From a virus, in the IMG/VR virus record IMGVR_UViG_3300028829_005240, positions 1 through 23,291 of that record: a stretch of 23,291 nt of DNA. The stretch is one strand, 5' to 3'. Below, piece after piece: positions 4,276-23,291 of the stretch. The position numbers and the translations under genes were made by a program. Each line of letters starts with the position of its first letter. Position 1 is the first letter of the stretch. Under the pieces are notes generated by a model. That model was not told the DNA's origin, searched no databases, and saw only the letters and a program-made list of their open reading frames with translations.

Positions 4276-4830
4276 ATGAAAGATTGGATACAAGAAGAAG
4301 ACGATAAATATAGCTGGCTATACGAAAATGGATATCCAATAGGAAATCCAATGAGGATAGTTAATAAATATGGCCTTTTAAAAGAACAAAGCTGTATAGA
4401 TCTCGGTTGCGGTAGAGCCTCTTTAAGTAAATATTTCATATCCTATACTGGTGTTGATGTTTCAAAATACATAATAGAGCATAATAAGAAAGCTAGGTCT
4501 GGCGACTATTTCCACGGATCTTTGGATAAACTTAGCGATATTAGATTTAATCGTAGCAATTTTGATATAGCTATATGTTCAGATGTCATGGAGCATATAC
4601 CAGAAACTGAAGTAAGTAATGTCTTGCGCGCTATTTCTAATTTAGACGCCAAAGCCTTTTATTTTGCCATATCAACAAGAAAATCAGTTCTACTAGATAA
4701 AGAAAATAAAAACTTACACCTTTCCGTTTTTTCAAGTGATAAATGGGCTTCTCTGATATCTGAATTTTTGTCTATAGACCATGAAGAAAAATCCCCTACG
4801 CTTTATACGATTAAATGCACTGGGAGATAA
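4276..4830 (+). CDS. Class I SAM-dependent methyltransferase
   Basis: A Rossmann-fold methyltransferase of 184 residues. Motif I is DLGCGRASL (42-50), the acidic ribose-binding residue is D61 in TGVDVS, and motif IV is FDIAICSDVMEHIP (96-109), typical of small-molecule or sugar methyltransferases rather than DNA methylases (no NPPY or PC motif). It starts 3 bases after the small terminase stop with a poor ribosome site, so it is probably coupled. The next three genes are a sialyltransferase-like enzyme, a cupin and GDP-mannose dehydratase, which suggests that it methylates a sugar or glycan. The substrate cannot be deduced. Confidence 0.8.
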   Translation: MKDWIQEEDDKYSWLYENGYPIGNPMRIVNKYGLLKEQSCIDLGCGRASLSKYFISYTGVDVSKYIIEHNKKARSGDYFHGSLDKLSDIRFNRSNFDIAICSDVMEHIPETEVSNVLRAISNLDAKAFYFAISTRKSVLLDKENKNLHLSVFSSDKWASLISEFLSIDHEEKSPTLYTIKCTGR

Positions 4831-4836
4831 ATAATT

Positions 4837-5349
4837 ATGATTATAATAGTTGGAAACGGAACATCTATATTAGATAAAAAAAATGGAAAACTGATAGATT
4901 CGTTTGATGAGGTTGTTAGATTCAACAGTTTTAGAATAAAGGGCTACGAGGAGTATACAGGAGAAAAAACTACGACTTGGTTCACATGTAACTCTCACCA
5001 CATAAAAGAGATAAATTCTTTCAAGAGTGTTTATGTTCATACTTGGGAGTGGGACAAAAATAAATGTCAACTATTCAAATCATTTCATAAGGTTAGAGAC
5101 GATTGTATTAAAACAGACAGGGGGTTCGTCAGATCAAGTATTCCATTGTCAACTCCTAGTACGGGCTTGATAGCTATATATATGATCTTACAAAATTTTC
5201 CAAAAGTAACAATTACTGGATTTGACTGGTGGGACAGAGAAGATCATCATTATGCAGATAAGCAAATAAGAGGAACCTTACATAAACCAAAAGAAGAATT
5301 AGAATTCATTAAAAAACTTATTGATTCTGATAGGGTTGAATTCTTATGA
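4837..5349 (+). CDS. GT29 family (sialyltransferase-like) glycosyltransferase
   Basis: A 170-residue protein showing the compact GT29 pattern: a GNGTSIL loop at 6-12, FDEVVRFNSF at 23-32, GYEEYTGEKTTTWF, then PLSTPSTGLIAI (103-114) corresponding to the S-motif, TGFDWW near 128-132, and H149-x4-E154 (HKPKEE) matching the HxxxxE very-small motif. Known GT29 enzymes transfer sialic acid from CMP-sugar, but short bacterial and viral relatives may use other donors. It has no signal or membrane segment, so it acts in the host cytoplasm. GGAGAT lies upstream of ATG 4837. Its stop overlaps the next ATG (ATGA). Confidence 0.75.
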   Translation: MIIIVGNGTSILDKKNGKLIDSFDEVVRFNSFRIKGYEEYTGEKTTTWFTCNSHHIKEINSFKSVYVHTWEWDKNKCQLFKSFHKVRDDCIKTDRGFVRSSIPLSTPSTGLIAIYMILQNFPKVTITGFDWWDREDHHYADKQIRGTLHKPKEELEFIKKLIDSDRVEFL

Positions 5350-5705
5350 ATAAACAAGGCAAAATATGGGGTCAAACTGTAGAATTATTCAGTAAAAACA
5401 ATGTTTCTATAAATAGACTAGAAACCAAAAAAAACAGTTGCTGTTCAAAACACTACCATGAACATAAGTATAATACTTTTTTTGTTGAGACAGGCAAGGT
5501 GCTAATACAGGAATGGAAAAACGATTACAACTTAATTGACGAAACAACTTTAAAGTCTGGAGAAAAATGCTTAATACCACCTAAAAATTATCACAGATTC
5601 ATAAGCCTTGAAGACAGCGTTGTGTATGAGATATACCATGTTGAACTTTTAAATGAAGACATTATAAGAGAAGACACTGGACAGGAAACTTTTAAAGAGG
5701 AATAA
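5346..5705 (+). CDS. Single-domain cupin
   Basis: A 119-residue single cupin barrel. Cupin motif 1 is HYHEHKYNTFFVETG (36-50) with metal-ligand candidates H36, H38, H40 and E48; motif 2 is LIPPKNYHRF (76-85) with H83. The pattern resembles the C-terminal cupin of type II phosphomannose isomerases, which would fit the dehydratase next door that consumes GDP-mannose, but a single cupin could also be a sugar epimerase, isomerase or binding protein. It is translationally coupled to the upstream glycosyltransferase (ATGA overlap) and ends one base before the next start; its 3' end supplies the AGAGGA ribosome site of the dehydratase. Confidence 0.75.
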   Translation: MNKQGKIWGQTVELFSKNNVSINRLETKKNSCCSKHYHEHKYNTFFVETGKVLIQEWKNDYNLIDETTLKSGEKCLIPPKNYHRFISLEDSVVYEIYHVELLNEDIIREDTGQETFKEE

Positions 5706-5706
5706 A

Positions 5707-6810
5707 ATGAAAGCTATTATCACAGGAATTACAGGTCAAGACGGCAGTCACTTAGCGGACCTTTTGCTTGAAAAGGGTTACGATGTAGTAGGTGTTTCAA
5801 GAAGGAGCAGCACAGACAATACAGATAGAATTAAACATATTCTTGATCACGAACGATTCAGTTTGGCTCAGGGTGATATAACTGACGCACATTCAATCAT
5901 TAATATATTCAAAGCACACGAAGACGTAAATGAAATTTATAATCTAGCCGCCCAAAGTCACGTCGCTGTATCATTTAATCAGCCGGGCTTGACTTGGGAT
6001 ATAACTGGTAAGGGGTGCTTAAATATACTACAGAGCATAAAAGACCTAGAAATGATAAACGCTAGATTCTACCAAGCCAGTAGTAGTGAAATGTTTGGTA
6101 GCAATTACGATACAAGAACAAGAGATGGAGACTTTGATAACAAGTTGCCCATTGAGAAATTCCAAAACGAAGAAACAAAATTCCTTCCCCAATCCCCTTA
6201 TGCTATTTCTAAATGCGCCGCTCACTATATGACAAGGCTCTACAGGGAAGGGTACGGTCTACATGCTAGCGCAGGTATATTGTTCAACCATGAAGGACCA
6301 AGACGTGGTGAGAATTTTGTAACTAGAAAGATTACTAAATGGATTGGTAATTTTATTAAATGGTGTGCCACCAACGACGTATCGCCAATAGAATTATCTA
6401 ATTTAGTAATTGATGACGATGAGATATATATTTCTGGAAGAAAAGATAAATCACAAGGTTTACAATTTCCTAAACTAAGACTTGGTAATCTAGAGGCGTA
6501 TAGAGACTGGGGATTTGCTGGCGACTATTGCGAAGCTATGTGGCTAATGCTACAAAAAGATTGTCCAGACGACTATGTAATTTGCACCGGAGAAACTCAC
6601 ACGGTCACAGAATTTCTACAGATAGCTTTTGGATGTGTTGGCATAAACGAGTGGTCTAACTTCGTTGTCGTAGACCCAGAGTTCTACAGGCCAGCAGAAG
6701 TAGATTATCTAAGAGGTGATTGCTCAAAAGCAAAAGAGAAACTTGAATGGAAACCCAAACACTCATTTGAAGATCTAGTAAAGATGATGGTCATGAGTGA
6801 TTTAGCATGA
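5707..6810 (+). CDS. gmd: GDP-mannose 4,6-dehydratase
   Basis: Converts GDP-D-mannose to GDP-4-keto-6-deoxy-D-mannose, the entry step to GDP-fucose, GDP-rhamnose and related sugars. It is a short-chain dehydrogenase-type protein of 367 residues. The NADP-binding loop GITGQDGSH lies at 7-15, the catalytic SSSE segment at 125-128, and Y165/K169 form the YxxxK pair (YAISK). The diagnostic stretch FNHEGPRRGENFVTRKIT is at 193-210. Compared with cellular enzymes it has about 12 extra residues at 134-155 and about 30 extra at 220-256. RBS AGAGGA precedes ATG 5707. No reductase or epimerase that would finish the sugar is in this window. Its stop overlaps the next start by 4 bases. Confidence 0.92.
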   Translation: MKAIITGITGQDGSHLADLLLEKGYDVVGVSRRSSTDNTDRIKHILDHERFSLAQGDITDAHSIINIFKAHEDVNEIYNLAAQSHVAVSFNQPGLTWDITGKGCLNILQSIKDLEMINARFYQASSSEMFGSNYDTRTRDGDFDNKLPIEKFQNEETKFLPQSPYAISKCAAHYMTRLYREGYGLHASAGILFNHEGPRRGENFVTRKITKWIGNFIKWCATNDVSPIELSNLVIDDDEIYISGRKDKSQGLQFPKLRLGNLEAYRDWGFAGDYCEAMWLMLQKDCPDDYVICTGETHTVTEFLQIAFGCVGINEWSNFVVVDPEFYRPAEVDYLRGDCSKAKEKLEWKPKHSFEDLVKMMVMSDLA

Positions 6811-14164: not shown

Positions 14165-15172
14165 ATGTCATATAAAGAAAGACCAAGTGAAGAGTTTATC
14201 ACATTGCTTCGCCGCTCTGGTGATAATGATCAAAATGTAGCTTTTGCTGCCCAAAGAGAGTTTGCACAAGCTTTGGAACTTCCTCTGCGCAAGGGCGTTT
14301 TGGTTGGTAATATTCTCGGTAATATTTTCGAGACTATTCAAGTCGAGCCGGGTGGAAGCACTGAGTATCCATTGGATCTTATCAGTCCGGGACTTGAGGG
14401 TGAGCATGTCGCTTACACCAACCCCGGTCATGGTCGCGTTCCTGAGAGATCAGTCGAAGGCGATTACGTAATGATCCCAACCTACAGCATTACATCAAGT
14501 ATTGATTACTTGCTTCGTTTTGCTCGCGAGGCTCGTTGGGACATTGTTGGTCGCGCTATGCAAGTTTTAGAGGCCGGATTCGTCAAAAAGATGAATGATG
14601 ACGGATGGCACACTCTGCTTGCTGCTGGTGTTGATCGTAACATTTTGGTTTATGACGGTGATGCAACCGCTGGCATGTTCTCCAAGAGACTTGTTAGCTT
14701 GCTTCAAACTGTTATGCGTCGTAACGCTGGTGGTAACACTGGCTCTGGAAATCGCGGTCGATTGACCGACTTGTACGTTTCACCAGAAGCACTTGAAGAT
14801 GTTCGCAACTGGGGATTTGATCAGATCTCTGACGCAACCAGAACTGCTATCTACAATGCGGGTGGCGACGGCGCTCCAATCACTAATGTGTTCGGAGTTA
14901 GCCTACACGATCTAGATGAACTTGGAGAAGGTCAGGAATATCAAGATTTCTTCACCGGTTCACTTGGTGGTAGCGTTGCTGGTGGCGATACTGAATTGGT
15001 AGTTGGTCTCGACCAAGGCGCTAACGACAGCTTTGTTATGCCAATGAAGCAAGCTGTTCAAGTCTTTGAAGATCCTACCCTTCACAGACAGCAAAGAGCA
15101 GGCTACTACGGGTTCGCTGAACTCGGCTTTGGCGTTCTTGATAACAGAAGAATCCTCTTGGGTTCATTCTAA
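14165..15172 (+). CDS. Major capsid protein
   Basis: A 335-residue HK97-fold type capsid protein, judged by length, position and composition. It shows an N-terminal helix and loop, a conserved central segment (IPTYSITSSIDYLLRFAREARWDIVGRAM region, about 102-132), a DLYVSPEALEDVRNW helix near 201-215, and a C-terminal QRAGYYGFAELGFGVLDNRRI strand that is typical of phage capsids. There is no long N-terminal delta region, consistent with a separately encoded scaffold. Ribosome site AAAGGAGAT precedes ATG 14165. Codons are C- and G-richer than in most of the window. A rho-independent terminator follows 27 bases after the stop. Confidence 0.9.
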   Translation: MSYKERPSEEFITLLRRSGDNDQNVAFAAQREFAQALELPLRKGVLVGNILGNIFETIQVEPGGSTEYPLDLISPGLEGEHVAYTNPGHGRVPERSVEGDYVMIPTYSITSSIDYLLRFAREARWDIVGRAMQVLEAGFVKKMNDDGWHTLLAAGVDRNILVYDGDATAGMFSKRLVSLLQTVMRRNAGGNTGSGNRGRLTDLYVSPEALEDVRNWGFDQISDATRTAIYNAGGDGAPITNVFGVSLHDLDELGEGQEYQDFFTGSLGGSVAGGDTELVVGLDQGANDSFVMPMKQAVQVFEDPTLHRQQRAGYYGFAELGFGVLDNRRILLGSF

Positions 15173-16917: not shown

Positions 16918-17967
16918 ATGAGGAAAATAACCATAGGAATGGCGCACCATTCGGACTTTCACGGTGCTTACTTTAGTATTCAAGATATAATTAAAGAGTT
17001 AAGATTTAATAAAAGGGAAGATTTACTAGATAGACTTGAATTTATAGTTATTGAAAACGCAAAAGATAACGAACACGCACAAGCTGTTAAAAACCTACAA
17101 TGTGGAACTGGACTTGGTGGAAAATTTAGAGTTATAGATTTTCCAGACTCTCAAGGGACTTCCGCTACTAGGAATAAAATTATTGAAGAAGCAAAAACTG
17201 ATTTTGTTCTTGTTATGGATTGTCATGTTCTATTATGCCCAGTTGTACAAACTTTAGATAAATTATTTGAATTTATAGATAGATATCCAAACACAAAACA
17301 TTTATATCAAGGTCCACTGGTCTATGATAACTTAACTATGATTTCCACTCATTTCAATAATGAATGGGATGGACAAATGTGGGGTAGATGGGGTGCAGCT
17401 TGGACCTGTAGGTGCAAAAATAAAAACTTCAGTGTAATAAACGAAGATGACAAATGTAAATTTGTTGAACTTGAGAAGCAGAATCAGATTAACTATTGCG
17501 ACCATTGTTTTACAATTTTTCCGCAACAAGTAAATTTTCCCGGACATGAAAGCTTACTTAATAAAATTGGGTTTTCAAAACTTGGGTTTGATAAAAATGA
17601 GAGTGAGTTTGAAATATTTTCACAAGGGCTTGGATTGTTTTTTACGTCGAAAAAATCTTGGCTTGGATTCAACGAACATTGTAGAGGTTTTGGTGGAGAG
17701 GAGTGTTATATACATGAAAAATACAGGAAAGCTGGCAGAAAAGCATTATGTTTACCATTTTTAAAGTGGTTACATAGGTTTGCTAGACCAGACGGTGTTA
17801 AGTATGAACTAACAATAGAAAATAAGGTTAGAAATTACGTTTTAGAGTTTAGCGAACTTAAACTTGACTTACACCCTGTATATGAATATTTTGTAAAAAA
17901 ATTAAATTTTAATGAAGATAGTTACAATAAATTTCTAGAAGAATCAAAACAAATATACGGTAATTAA
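16918..17967 (+). CDS. GT27-like glycosyltransferase (polypeptide GalNAc-transferase-type motifs)
   Basis: A 349-residue GT-A fold glycosyltransferase. After an N-terminal nucleotide-binding half it has GTSATRNKIIEEAKTDFVLVMDCH (80-103); the DCH at 101-103 matches the DxH metal motif of animal polypeptide GalNAc-transferases rather than the usual DxD. Residues 249-273 (LGFNEHCRGFGGEECYIHEKYRKAG) match the Gal/GalNAc-T motif (GGEN/ExxxS.R.W..GG), and H286 in KWLHRF sits where those enzymes have a third metal ligand. An insert carries C164, C166, C180 and C194xxC197, possibly a zinc site. It has no signal or membrane segment and no lectin domain. Its stop is one base before the ATG of the mucin-like gene. 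Other GT2-like sugars are possible. Confidence 0.7.
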   Translation: MRKITIGMAHHSDFHGAYFSIQDIIKELRFNKREDLLDRLEFIVIENAKDNEHAQAVKNLQCGTGLGGKFRVIDFPDSQGTSATRNKIIEEAKTDFVLVMDCHVLLCPVVQTLDKLFEFIDRYPNTKHLYQGPLVYDNLTMISTHFNNEWDGQMWGRWGAAWTCRCKNKNFSVINEDDKCKFVELEKQNQINYCDHCFTIFPQQVNFPGHESLLNKIGFSKLGFDKNESEFEIFSQGLGLFFTSKKSWLGFNEHCRGFGGEECYIHEKYRKAGRKALCLPFLKWLHRFARPDGVKYELTIENKVRNYVLEFSELKLDLHPVYEYFVKKLNFNEDSYNKFLEESKQIYGN

Positions 17968-17968
17968 A

Positions 17969-19069
17969 ATGGGTAGACCTTCTACTTGTGGTTGTCCATG
18001 CCCAACGACAACTACTACAACTACAACGACTACGACGGAAGCCCCGGTGTACTCTTGTCGTATTTGTGCCGGTAGCGCTCTTGAGCCATTTTCTCAATCT
18101 TACCATTGTATTGACGGTGAAGATATAACGCAAGAGGAGTGCGAACTTATTGAAGGTTTCTGGGTTCCGTTCGCTTGTGATAACCAAGTTCTAGCGGGTG
18201 TCGGTCCTAATTGTCCAGCATTATGTAGAACATCATATGAATACGGTCTTCTGTTTAATGAAGATGCGCCCCTTCCCGGTCCTAGTAATGCATTTAGGGA
18301 CGAGGTTATGACTGAACATAATGGTTCATGGCTCCTATCTTCATTTCTCGGTGGTACTTTTACATCCAACAACTTTAATAGCGATAACTGCAACCCTACC
18401 GGTGACAGCGCCGGAGGTAGTTTAAGATATTCTTTTAACTTAACCAAAGGTTCTACCATTAGTATTCAAATGGAAGCCTCTGCCTCAGTTGGACAAAAGG
18501 TTTCGCAATTCTTTGTTATACCTCAACTTGGAGTTTCTCAAGGCGTGGGTTTGGGCGGTCCAAATTGCTCTTGCGAATGTCCATCAAAAAATATAAATAC
18601 TTACAGACGAACTTTCAATTATTCTATTGAAGATGAAGGTTGTTATAGCATTTTTACCGGAGGGTCAATAGAAGGAGTGGATAATTCTTTCACTGTTAGA
18701 ATAGGGGTTAATGGAACCTTTAGTGGCGATTCTGACGGTACGAATATAGTAGAAACCTGTAGACCTTGCGATACAACAACCACCACGACGCCGTCTCCAG
18801 CTACAACCACCACAACCGTAGCTCCAACCACTACTACCACGACCGTAGCTCCAACCACTACTACCACGACCGCAGCTCCAACCACTACTACCACGACCGC
18901 AGCTCCAACCACTACTACCACGACCGCAGCTCCAACCACTACTACCACAACCGTAGCTCCAACCACTACGACGCCGTCTCCAGCTACAACCACCACGACC
19001 GCAGCTCCAACCACCACAACTACAACAGAAAATCCCATACCTGACGGTGGTGGTGGCCCTTCCCCTTAA
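17969..19069 (+). CDS. Mucin-like protein with Thr-rich tracts and Cys-rich core
   Basis: A 366-residue protein. The N-terminus MGRPSTCGCPCP is followed by eleven consecutive threonines (13-23) and EAP. The core (27-268) is Cys-rich (for example C30, C33, C47, C58, C70, C82, C86, C200, C202, C204, C264, C267) with beta-like stretches. The C-terminus (269-353) is almost only Thr, Pro, Ala and Val in repeats such as VAPTTTTTT, ending in ENPIPDGGGGPSP. This is the composition of O-glycosylated mucin stalks, and the GT27-like gene ends one base upstream. No signal peptide is present, so modification would occur in the host cytoplasm. It has no clear ribosome site, so it is probably coupled to that gene. 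Function as a decorated virion spike or surface protein is inference. Confidence 0.75.
   Translation: MGRPSTCGCPCPTTTTTTTTTTTEAPVYSCRICAGSALEPFSQSYHCIDGEDITQEECELIEGFWVPFACDNQVLAGVGPNCPALCRTSYEYGLLFNEDAPLPGPSNAFRDEVMTEHNGSWLLSSFLGGTFTSNNFNSDNCNPTGDSAGGSLRYSFNLTKGSTISIQMEASASVGQKVSQFFVIPQLGVSQGVGLGGPNCSCECPSKNINTYRRTFNYSIEDEGCYSIFTGGSIEGVDNSFTVRIGVNGTFSGDSDGTNIVETCRPCDTTTTTTPSPATTTTTVAPTTTTTTVAPTTTTTTAAPTTTTTTAAPTTTTTTAAPTTTTTTVAPTTTTPSPATTTTTAAPTTTTTTENPIPDGGGGPSP
18818..19027 (+). repeat. In-frame 27-bp tandem repeats encoding a Thr-Pro-Ala stalk
   Basis: Five head-to-tail 27-bp units at 18818-18952 start GTAGCTCCAACC or GCAGCTCCAACC and differ at only one or two bases (Val/Ala codon and one silent change). 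They are followed by a longer degenerate copy (from 18953) and a last unit at 19001-19027. The segment ACGCCGTCTCCAGCTACAAC occurs at both 18788 and 18969, flanking the array. All units keep the frame, so copy number can change without frameshift. The N-terminal Thr tract (18005-18037) mixes all four Thr codons and is not a simple DNA repeat. Confidence 0.9.
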
Positions 19070-19147: not shown

Positions 19148-22100
19148 ATGGCACTAATTATAGCAGACAGAGTAAAGGAAACCACTATTACTAGTGGTAG
19201 CGGAAGGATTACTCTCAGTGGAGCTACATTTGGTGGATTTCAAACCTTTTCTGACGCAATAGGTGACGGAAATACAACCTACTATTGTATACAAAATTTT
19301 GATAAATTTGAGATTGGTCTTGGAGTATACAGGTCTAGTGATAACACTCTGAGTAGAGACACTGTACTGCAAAGTTCAAATTCTGACAACCTAATTAGTC
19401 TTACAGGGGCTAGCGTTGTATTCTGTGTAATTCCGGCAGACAAGTCGTTATACATAAATGAATCAGGTGATGCAGAGCTTCCAGTGCCTTTAACACTAAA
19501 AAGGTCAGACAGTGGCGATTATTGGCAAACGTTCTCTACAGACCATAGCAATAGAGTTGCCTCCTTTTATATACATGAGAGTGCTGACCCCACTTGGAAA
19601 ATCGGCCTTAAAACAACGTCTTCTGACATGGTGGCGCCATACTATGCTTATGTTTCTGCTAAAGATGGCTTTGTTGAATTAAGAGGTAATTCTTCTTCTA
19701 TTTTAAGTATAGGTGATGGCAATTCTGAAGGTTTGCAAGTAAACCATCAATTTAAAAATGTTATAGATATTAGAAAGAATGGCGGTGAAATTGCTATTCA
19801 GAACTTAGATTTGAACTCAGATGAAACGACAACTGCTAAAAACACATCTATAGCATATACCGTTTTTTCTGTTGAGTCTAGCGCAAGCCATGCTGCCGAT
19901 CTTCAAACTTGGAGTGTGACAACTGACGAAAAAGCTTCTTTAAATCAGTACGGTGACTTTGAAACAGTCGGTAACGTTATTTCTCCAAGTGGTAAATTTT
20001 CGGCGGTTAGGTTTAACGATACTTCTATTCAGACAACCGCTGGATTACCCTACGGTAGCGGAAGTTTAATAGATCAAAACACACAAAATATAGTCACTAA
20101 CAGTGGTTACTTTCAATCCTATATAGACAGTAGAGATGTTGCGATTAGCGGTTGGACTGAGGGTTATATAGATCAGACTAGTGGTAATTTACAATTTGAA
20201 ATATCTCAAGTTTCTTCTGATTTGTCTTCAACGTCTGGTTATTTTGAATCAAGAGTAGACCAGCTAGATTCTGATGTTTCTTACGTTTCTGGAATTGCCG
20301 TCTTTGCTTCTGGTCACAATTTACAGTCTGTCACAGATAATGGTAGCGTTACTACGAATGCTATAACTGTAAATAATAATATCACGGCTAGTAGTGGTTT
20401 ATTTGATTCTTTAGATATGACCCCTATTGCGGAAGCTAATTATCCTCCTCATCAAGAGGGTGTTCTTTTTTATGATAATGAAAACCATACATTAAGTTTA
20501 TATAATGACGAAGCAGATGTAACTCTACAGCTTGGTCAAGAGGAATTCCTAAGAGTTAGAAATAATACGGGCGCAACTATCGAGAACGGAACTGCCGTTC
20601 TTATTAATGGCGCACATGGAAATGCTGCACCCACTATCTCAGGCGCGATTGCTAATTCAGAATCTTCCTCTCAGGTTGTTGGTCTTGCTACACATAGTAT
20701 TGAGAATAATTCTTTTGGCTATGTTACAACCTATGGTATCGTTAGGGACATAGATACCTCTAGCTTCTCTGCTGGCGATGAAATATTCTTATCTGCAACA
20801 GAAGTTGGTAGTGGTGTAAATGTTTCTCCCGTGATTCCTAATTACAAGGTTACTATTGGTCACGTAATAAGAAGTCATTCCAATGGTTCCGTCTTGGTTC
20901 AAGTCGGACATCCAAAATTAGGTGGTGGCGATTTAAAGTCAGAATCAGTACTTAATCTTAGTGGTGTGCCGTTTGTTAGTCAAATTGCCGACACTACCGC
21001 AGGCGGATCGCTTACAGATTCATTATTTGTATTTGATAGTGGTAATCGTCAACTACAACTTGGTAGTGGTTTACAGCTTCTAGATGGTCAACCCTCCAAC
21101 ACAACTAATGTTTTATATAATGATGGCGGAGACCTATATTTTAACGGATCTGAAATTGGTGTAAGTGGTGAAAGTCTTGACTTTGCTGGCAATATACTTA
21201 CATACAATAATAGCAAGGGTGGTAGTTTTACCGCTGACCTTTCTAGTCTATCTACTTTTGACACCAGTGGTGTAAGTCTAGGTTACTCTGCTGGTACATT
21301 AACATATACTAATAATGCTGGTGGAAGTTTTGATGTAGATCTTTCAAGTATAAGTGGTGATGTTTACGCTATGATTGTAGATGGCGCACCCACAACTCTT
21401 GACACGCTTAATGAGATTGCGGCGGCTTTAAACGATGACGCTAACTTGGCAAACACTCTAACTAATTTAATATCTACAACTAGCGGTAATCTACAAACGC
21501 AGATTACAAGCAATGATGGTGATATAGCAACAGTTTCGGGTATAGCAGCTAAAACATTTACAGTTACAGCAAGTAGTTCAACCAATTATACCTTTGACGG
21601 AATGGGGCTGAATAGCGCTTCTGATCCAACTATTTACTTACACAAAGGTCATACTTACTATTTTGACAAACAAACATCTAGTCATCCACTTAGAATATCC
21701 GCTAGTGACGGTGGCTCAGTTTATCAAGACGCAGATGGTAATAATGTAGAAATTACTGGACAGGGCATATTAACATTTGAAGTTCCTCAGAATGCCCCAG
21801 ACAAATTATACTACTATTGTACCTCTCATCCTTCTTCTATGAAGGGTCTTATTTACACAACTGCGGATGGTTCTTTATCTGGATACTTTGAATCTCGCGC
21901 AGACCAAGCCGACGCCGACATCTCAACGGTTTCTGGTTTACTTTACGACGACACTGCTATATCTGGTTATTTCGAGTCTAGATCGGACGAGTCTGACGCC
22001 AACAACTCCGTCGTGTCTGGGTTACTTTACAACTACTGGACGGTTTCTGATGGCGTCAACTCTGAGAACATACTAGCTAATCAACAGGTTACATTCAGCG

Positions 22101-23291
22101 GGGTTGGAGGAAGCGTTGTTTCTTACGACTCTAGTTCAAATACCGTTTCTATAAGCGGTTCATCAGATCCAACAGGTGTTGTCAGTGGTGTATCTTTCTT
22201 TGGCGATGACGGAATTTTAACTGGTAATAATACATTTACGTATGACGGTCAAGACATAAGAGTTAGTGGCGCTATATTTTCTAGCAACGCTACATTTAAC
22301 TCATTGTTAAATGTTAGTGGTGTTTCTACGTTTGGTGCAGGAGTAAAAACAAAGCTTAACAGTGAGTCAGATGGCGCAACTATAACCTTTGATATGGATC
22401 AGTCAAATACCCACAGTACAACTCTTGGTGGAAACAGAACTCTTGCTGTATCCAATGTTGATGCTGGACAAAAGTTCACAATAAGGTTAGCGCAAGACGG
22501 CACAGGTAATCGTGAAGTTAATTGGTGGAGTAATATAAACTGGATTATATCTAACAGCGGTGAACCTACACTTAATTCTGGTGTTAATGAGGTAGATTAC
22601 TTTGGTTTTCTTTGTACTAGCGGTGGATATTACGACGGATTCCACATGACAGAGTTAGCCGCAGGCGGCGGAGGCGGAGGCGGAGGAACTACTTACAATA
22701 TTGCTAGCGGCTTACCTTATGCTTCTGGAGAATACTATCTACAAGAGATAAATCAAAACGCAGCGGACATCGTGACGGTTTCTGGGTTGATTGGCACAGG
22801 AGGAGGAACCGGAAGCGGATTGCCATACGCCTCTGGAGATTATTATTTAAACAGTATAAATACGGTCTCTGGTTTAATTCCTAACAATACATTTAACATA
22901 ACTGGTGGTGATGGTAGTAATTACACAATAGATGGAATGGGTCTAAACAGCGCATCCGATCCAACGATGTATTTACACAAAGGGCATACCTATGTATTTA
23001 ATAAAACATTTTCTGGTCATCCATTTGCGGTTTCTGCTACTGATGGTGGTAGCGTCTATTCGGACGCTGACGGAACCAATATAGAAATTGGATCTTCTGC
23101 TGGATCTGTTGCTTTTGAAGTTCCACAAGATGCTCCAGACAAACTTTATTATTATTGTACTGCTCACCCATCTAACATGAAGGGTGTTATTTATACAACT
23201 ACGGATGGTTCTCTTTCAGGATACTTTGAGTCAAGGGTAGATACTAACGCCGCTGATATTATCACGGTTTCTGGTTTAACTGGCGGTGGAG
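19148..23291 (+). CDS. Giant modular tail fibre / virion adhesin, open at right edge
   Basis: An uninterrupted frame of at least 1,381 codons from ATG 19148 to the right edge. The N-terminus MALIIADRVKETTITSGSG with FQTFSDAIGDGNTTYY is a conserved phage virion domain. Further modules follow in order: heptad-like SGYFESRVDQ coiled-coil linkers; an EFLRVRNNTGATIENGTAVL module (about 20540-20910) common in phage fibres; beta-rich GGSF repeats; a helical TLDTLNEIAAALNDD segment; cupredoxin-like domain 1 (21551-21862); a second ESR linker pair; an ATITFDMDQSNTHSTTLGGNRTL beta domain (about 22370-22650); a run of eight glycines (22664-22687); and cupredoxin-like domain 2 (22892-23200) followed by another linker. 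The weak ribosome site (ACGGA) is offset by its own promoter-like motif. No receptor-binding tip is reached. Confidence 0.88.
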   Translation, partial: MALIIADRVKETTITSGSGRITLSGATFGGFQTFSDAIGDGNTTYYCIQNFDKFEIGLGVYRSSDNTLSRDTVLQSSNSDNLISLTGASVVFCVIPADKSLYINESGDAELPVPLTLKRSDSGDYWQTFSTDHSNRVASFYIHESADPTWKIGLKTTSSDMVAPYYAYVSAKDGFVELRGNSSSILSIGDGNSEGLQVNHQFKNVIDIRKNGGEIAIQNLDLNSDETTTAKNTSIAYTVFSVESSASHAADLQTWSVTTDEKASLNQYGDFETVGNVISPSGKFSAVRFNDTSIQTTAGLPYGSGSLIDQNTQNIVTNSGYFQSYIDSRDVAISGWTEGYIDQTSGNLQFEISQVSSDLSSTSGYFESRVDQLDSDVSYVSGIAVFASGHNLQSVTDNGSVTTNAITVNNNITASSGLFDSLDMTPIAEANYPPHQEGVLFYDNENHTLSLYNDEADVTLQLGQEEFLRVRNNTGATIENGTAVLINGAHGNAAPTISGAIANSESSSQVVGLATHSIENNSFGYVTTYGIVRDIDTSSFSAGDEIFLSATEVGSGVNVSPVIPNYKVTIGHVIRSHSNGSVLVQVGHPKLGGGDLKSESVLNLSGVPFVSQIADTTAGGSLTDSLFVFDSGNRQLQLGSGLQLLDGQPSNTTNVLYNDGGDLYFNGSEIGVSGESLDFAGNILTYNNSKGGSFTADLSSLSTFDTSGVSLGYSAGTLTYTNNAGGSFDVDLSSISGDVYAMIVDGAPTTLDTLNEIAAALNDDANLANTLTNLISTTSGNLQTQITSNDGDIATVSGIAAKTFTVTASSSTNYTFDGMGLNSASDPTIYLHKGHTYYFDKQTSSHPLRISASDGGSVYQDADGNNVEITGQGILTFEVPQNAPDKLYYYCTSHPSSMKGLIYTTADGSLSGYFESRADQADADISTVSGLLYDDTAISGYFESRSDESDANNSVVSGLLYNYWTVSDGVNSENILANQQVTFSGVGGSVVSYDSSSNTVSISGSSDPTGVVSGVSFFGDDGILTGNNTFTYDGQDIRVSGAIFSSNATFNSLLNVSGVSTFGAGVKTKLNSESDGATITFDMDQSNTHSTTLGGNRTLAVSNVDAGQKFTIRLAQDGTGNREVNWWSNINWIISNSGEPTLNSGVNEVDYFGFLCTSGGYYDGFHMTELAAGGGGGGGGTTYNIASGLPYASGEYYLQEINQNAADIVTVSGLIGTGGGTGSGLPYASGDYYLNSINTVSGLIPNNTFNITGGDGSNYTIDGMGLNSASDPTMYLHKGHTYVFNKTFSGHPFAVSATDGGSVYSDADGTNIEIGSSAGSVAFEVPQDAPDKLYYYCTAHPSNMKGVIYTTTDGSLSGYFESRVDTNAADIITVSGLTGGG
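21551..21862 (+). other. Cupredoxin-like domain 1 in the giant fibre
   Basis: About 104 residues from KTFTVTASSS to KGLIYTT. The end YYYCTSHPSSMKG has the C-x2-H-x3-M pattern of type I copper loops (as plastocyanin, azurin, amicyanin), and an earlier His in QTSSHPLRIS (near 21680) could be the fourth ligand, with the expected order His...Cys-His-Met. The YLHKGHTYYFD strand matches the start of the fold. Copper binding is plausible but unproven. Confidence 0.65.
22892..23200 (+). other. Cupredoxin-like domain 2 in the giant fibre (duplicate)
   Basis: This repeats domain 1 after 1,341 bases, with identical stretches such as GMGLNSASDPT, YLHKGHTY, PDKLYYYCT and the following DGSLSGYFESR linker. 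The ligand set is again His (SGHPF), C-x2-H-x3-M (CTAHPSNM). Differences lie mostly in loops (for example the residues around the first His), as in a duplication followed by divergence. Confidence 0.65.

Follow-up and report, generated by a model that had tools for sequence, protein, structure and literature searches.

A marine bacterial virus from IMG/VR, whose whole 23,291-base record served as the window of this analysis, ends in a long tail-fibre gene encoding two domains with a predicted cupredoxin fold, each carrying His, Cys, His and Met as a complete putative type 1 copper ligand set. We favour, as the probable reading, a modular fibre with two copper-binding cupredoxin knobs in which the occupied site would make the knob more rigid and mould its contact surface. 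The original prediction, that a tail-fibre protein contains a cupredoxin-like fold together with the ligands of a type 1 copper site, was supported by an AlphaFold2 model, by structural matches to cupredoxins and by ligand conservation.

The fibre gene occupies positions 19,148–23,290 on the + strand as a single open frame of 1381 aa in the ORF list. It is stop-free up to the contig end, where the 3' end of the gene is cut; since the window is the entire record, further copies of the domain could exist past the contig end. The PHROG families matched by the frame were mostly tail families, several of them tail-fibre families, with phrog_677 (baseplate wedge tail fiber protein connector) at the top (6.5e-36). 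Among phage records, Roseobacter phage CRP-6 gave the best overall match, a putative tail fiber protein to which the N-terminal part aligned. An N-terminal fibre domain (19,148–19,513, +) was common to the fibres of other contigs carrying the module: by alignment (43–64% identity) and BLASTP mapping, the first ~110 residues of the frame recurred in long frames of those contigs. The product is placed in the virion by the annotation of its relatives only.

A terminase gene and a head protein gene lie upstream of the fibre gene in the window. The terminase had no more than 23–26% identity to its matches, which came from Bacillus phages and a Microcystis phage. The probable head protein (14,165–15,169), assigned by position, had no match among 50,697 phage records; the phage looks distant from cultured ones. 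A sugar-modification cassette (4276–6810 and 16,918–17,967) comprises genes for a methyltransferase, a GT29-like protein of the sialyltransferase family (Pfam, 7e-18), a cupin and a GDP-mannose 4,6-dehydratase, with a GT2 glycosyltransferase beside the fibre genes. Directly 5' of the fibre gene (17,969–19,069) lies a gene whose product has Cys in its N-terminal part and a tail of mucin-like poly-Thr/Ala-Pro character, the latter encoded by a 27-base tandem repeat (18,809–19,014). PADLOC returned no defence-protein match.

The two domains, each ~105 residues long and 70% identical as proteins, were located where they had been predicted, at 21,545–21,877 (copy 1, +; sequence matches, alignment, AlphaFold2 and structure comparison) and 22,889–23,215 (copy 2, +; sequence matches to copy 1 and alignment), each with its upstream His. 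Both copies contain YYYCTxHPSxMKG, with a His in S(S/G)HP ~45 residues upstream. In copy 1, the first ligand position is His846 in SSHPL (21,683–21,685, +; homologue and codon alignments), and the ligand loop YYYCTSHPSSMKG (21,809–21,847, +; motif scan and codon alignment) supplies Cys891, His894 and Met898, with codons starting at 21,818, 21,827 and 21,839. The corresponding positions in copy 2, identified by motif scan and codon alignment, are His1291 in SGHPF (23,018–23,020, +) and Cys1337, His1340 and Met1344 in the loop YYYCTAHPSNMKG (23,147–23,185, +), with codons starting at 23,156, 23,165 and 23,177. The type 1 ligand order His-Cys-His-Met, with two to four residues from the Cys to the second His, is thus present in both copies. 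The distance between the Cys motifs is 1,338 bases, and not 1,341 as first described. The pattern C-x2-H-x2/3-M occurs in the 1381-aa frame at these two sites only; its chance expectation was a mean of 0.001 per shuffled protein, and two occurrences were seen in 0 of 20,000 shuffles. Each domain is followed by a linker with a YFESR...TVSG repeat (21,873–21,952 after copy 1; 23,211–23,290 after copy 2, reaching the contig end; both +), recognised as a repeat family.

The repeat spans the whole domains beyond the motif, with an identical residue at 76 of 108 aligned codons; the same 108 codons show 34 synonymous and 32 residue differences. A well-supported cluster in the tree joined copy 2 to the domains of loci L010 and L007 and left copy 1 outside. 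Copy 2 was 87% identical to the L010 domain, its highest value in other phages, vs 70% to copy 1. The motif had been described as a duplication, a description that does not hold in its simple form because copy 2 clusters with domains from other phages; with the many synonymous differences between the copies, this placement also rules out a recent tandem duplication. Judged from these comparisons, the copies appear to be older paralogues or modules exchanged among phage fibres and not a fresh duplication. In near relatives whose gene is complete, a single copy was detected, and two or three copies per gene also occur elsewhere, in L016, L132, L145, L154, L155 and L195.

The AlphaFold2 model of copy 1, for which an alignment of 74 sequences was the input, was an all-strand domain with a mean pLDDT of 94.6 and a pTM of 0.87, and corresponds to the Greek-key beta-sandwich of cupredoxins. 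Its top match among solved structures was the N-terminal cupredoxin domain of a three-domain nitrite reductase (Z 12.6, rmsd 2.2 over 97 residues), with rusticyanin (Z 10.4) and then multicopper oxidases and small laccases behind it; Foldseek against solved structures gave an E value of 8e-6. The nitrite reductase is that of Hyphomicrobium denitrificans (2dv6), a copper enzyme whose N-terminal domain is the closest structural match to the phage domain at 20% identity; there the domain is part of an enzyme, whereas here it belongs to a fibre without a nitrite reductase match. Among predicted viral structures, the best matches were mostly cyanophage proteins, several of them tail parts. None of the PDB matches listed was a phage-derived solved structure of the domain, and the cryo-EM paper on P-SCSP1u does not mention a cupredoxin.

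At the sequence level, the link to solved cupredoxins was weak and alignment-dependent. A profile of 17 relatives matched nitrite reductase (8e-5), fern plastocyanin (6e-4) and amicyanins (about 0.04–0.2) in the PDB, and in the profile alignment the phage His, Cys, His and Met coincided with those of fern plastocyanin. The His, Cys, His and Met of plastocyanin are established copper ligands. The broader 74-sequence profile found no solved cupredoxin in the PDB at 0.01. Against Pfam PF00127 (Copper-bind) the two copies scored 15.1 and 15.2 bits vs a curated cut-off of 21.2, and 30 of the 74 family members matched it at E ≤0.1. Weak matches to PF25489 (At5g54830-like) were obtained for 28 of the 74, the best being a haloarchaeal member (E 2e-5) that scored 25.0 vs a cut-off of 27; copy 1 had no match to this family at E 0.1. 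None of ten members checked individually reached a Pfam or NCBIfam cut-off. Because the profile link is weak and the Pfam scores lie below cut-off, we regard the domain as a cupredoxin-fold family unnamed by these libraries. It shares the ligand order and the C-x2-H loop with plastocyanin and amicyanin (PF00127), which are soluble electron carriers, whereas the phage domain is built into a fibre and has Pro after the first His. Antibody-chain matches of single sequences (best E 0.02) were low-quality matches to YYC and were rejected as a sign of immunoglobulin relation, as were Coronavirus S1, TIG and other weak Pfam matches under cut-off. The haloarchaeal member, L184 (4001–4294), which gave the best PF25489 match, and L195 (4001–4291) are domains in large proteins of Halobellus, one of whose frames has two copies.

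Among 74 diverse homologues, the ligand columns were occupied by H in 72, C in 72, H in 72 and M in 74, so that the ligands do not vary freely; free variation had been named as the outcome that would refute the prediction. Losses were mostly joint for H, C and H. The residue after the first His was Pro in 73 of the 74; at this position, Asn or Ser is frequent in classical blue copper proteins. Because homology searches favour sequences that keep the motif, we built a ligand-blind profile with the four ligand columns blanked and used it to search all fetched loci anew, including 80 relatives of a ligand-less domain. Of the 146 distinct domains obtained (≤85% alike to one another), 120 had all of H, C and H, 22 had none and four were mixed; as 80 of the loci had been fetched with a ligand-less query, the proportion 22 of 146 does not estimate a population frequency. 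The ten other conserved residues were kept equally well in both states (mean 9.2 of 10 with all four ligands, 9.4–9.5 with three or four missing). On the best tree, reconstructed with the ligand columns left out, the ligand-less state required about 4–5 changes, at least two of them on well-supported branches; the two independent pairs on such branches are too few for a significance test. Mostly joint loss is the pattern that a shared metal site would predict, though few events lie behind it. These alignments give the ligands of the two domains the look of a metal site. A structural relic, which the original prediction had left open, is unlikely for the branch to which the window belongs, given the retention in 72–74 of 74 homologues and the mostly joint loss of H, C and H.

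The ligand-less domains form a large branch (L206–L285) in phage structural proteins, in which S-S-Y, Y-N-Q or F-A-Q replace H-C-H, and their host proteins matched phrog_677 and structural families. The L256 domain, modelled from its own branch and a few ligand-bearing relatives, was again a cupredoxin (pLDDT 94.9; rusticyanin Z 11.0, nitrite reductase Z 10.8), with AcoP and rusticyanin as the best Foldseek matches. Since a ligand-less branch has the same predicted fold, metal appears unnecessary for the domain to fold as a cupredoxin. The knob is useful even when metal-free, and most of the lineages sampled have kept the metal site as an extra trait. Most ligand-less domains retain the Met, which may therefore also serve packing.

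A tblastn search with copy 1 found the domain in 343 of 50,697 phage records, nearly all of them Synechococcus or Prochlorococcus phages and none above 60% identity, and the carrier proteins, most often labelled as baseplate wedge/tail-fibre connector, had annotations that ranged from gp9-like connector through proximal tail fibre and tail fibre to hypothetical. Retrieval from IMG/VR with a ligand-free peptide pattern yielded at least 521 confirmed relatives, of which 80 loci were kept for ORF analysis; of their 77 ORFs closed at the 3' end, 59 terminated ≤15 residues past the domain, which is thus often C-terminal. The bacterial and archaeal genome collection held 25 loci with the domain, many in marine Euryarchaeota, and some of the bacterial and archaeal loci may be phage sequence binned with its host. 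Each copy in the window matched phrog_677 on its own (E 2.8e-27 and 7.5e-26). In the gp9-like connector of cyanomyoviruses (e.g. Synechococcus phage S-SSM5), a member of phrog_677, the C-terminal ~100 residues are this domain, with the four ligands alike. The connector has one domain closing a ~400-residue protein (about 410), whereas the window protein has two domains inside a fibre of >1381 residues with another N-terminus, and BLASTP to S-SSM5 gp9 covered little beyond the domain copies. Cyanophage plastocyanin (petE) is a separate metabolic gene (PMC2984593).

In the reading that we favour, the gene would encode a tail fibre of modular build that carries two cupredoxin-fold knobs as insertions, each with its complete putative ligand set and a C-x2-H-x3-M loop like that of plastocyanin and amicyanin. 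Each knob would acquire one copper ion outside the cytoplasm, and the filled site would stiffen the knob and shape its surface in a part of the tail that touches the host or other tail proteins. Phage assembly is cytoplasmic and free copper is scarce there, so filling of the knob with copper after lysis is likely. We infer that the metal is copper, that virions have the site occupied and that it serves structure or adhesion in preference to electron transfer. A plain beta-sandwich knob for protein or sugar contact, its His, Cys, His and Met being a relic or core packing, would fit the ligand-less branch, which folds with equal confidence (pLDDT 94.9; rusticyanin Z 11.0) and stays in tail proteins, as well as the weak Pfam matches to carbohydrate-binding and Ig-like domains. 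We nevertheless hold it to be improbable, since few columns are more strongly conserved than those of the ligands, H, C and H mostly disappear as a set, and all four ligands are kept in both old, diverged copies. The metal could instead be a different one, for instance zinc, or else Cu(I) that lacks blue chemistry, acting as a purely structural clamp. Type 1 ligand sets bind several soft metals, and a Cupredoxin_1 domain with zinc bound (4hcg, Z 9.2) was among the structural matches, yet Met as fourth ligand, found in 74 of 74 homologues, fits copper better than zinc. That argument is weakened by the Met of most ligand-less domains, kept there perhaps for packing; overall, we think a clamp of this kind unlikely.

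We give a similarly small chance to the possibility, drawn by analogy, that the fibre brings redox-active copper to the host, for electron exchange at the cell surface, as a redox trigger of the tail or, after the 'Ferrojan horse' idea, as bait for host copper receptors. The full type 1 ligand set is the electron-transfer set of plastocyanin-type proteins, relatives of the domain occur also in marine archaea and bacteria, and iron-binding HxH motifs in phage fibres have been published together with the Trojan horse idea (PMC11705849). HxH tail fibres of the T4 gp37 type resemble the present proposal in binding metal in a phage fibre but differ in their ligands, and no HxH motif occurs in the 1381 residues of the window protein. 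Against a redox or bait function, there is no partner protein, no redox gene was recognised beside the fibre gene within the window, structural proteins carry the domain internally or at their end, and ligand-less branches occupy similar tail proteins; no finding of this analysis points to electron transfer.

The fold and the ligand set are themselves known. The open-access papers searched contained no description of a type 1-like site that is both widespread and strictly conserved in phage tail parts, and no earlier report of cupredoxin domains in phage fibres. From the retained ligands, marine phage tails probably bind copper, with candidate sites in hundreds of cyanobacterial viruses. A bolder reading, which we consider doubtful, is that the tails of marine phages, above all of cyanophages, are loaded with copper at type 1 sites and that this copper matters for infection, some lineages having lost the site and kept the knob; the copper could then serve as a redox trigger or as bait, or make contact with copper proteins of the host. 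Should the site hold copper, annotation as connector, tail fibre or hypothetical protein would have overlooked a metalloprotein domain that is very common in marine phage tails. Ligand-bearing and ligand-less domains of one fold offer a natural comparison, and because cultured cyanophages with the domain exist (Syn9, S-SSM5, P-SSM2), the copper question is directly testable. If the site is filled with copper, that element would join the metals possibly carried by virions in the ocean, where iron has been proposed.
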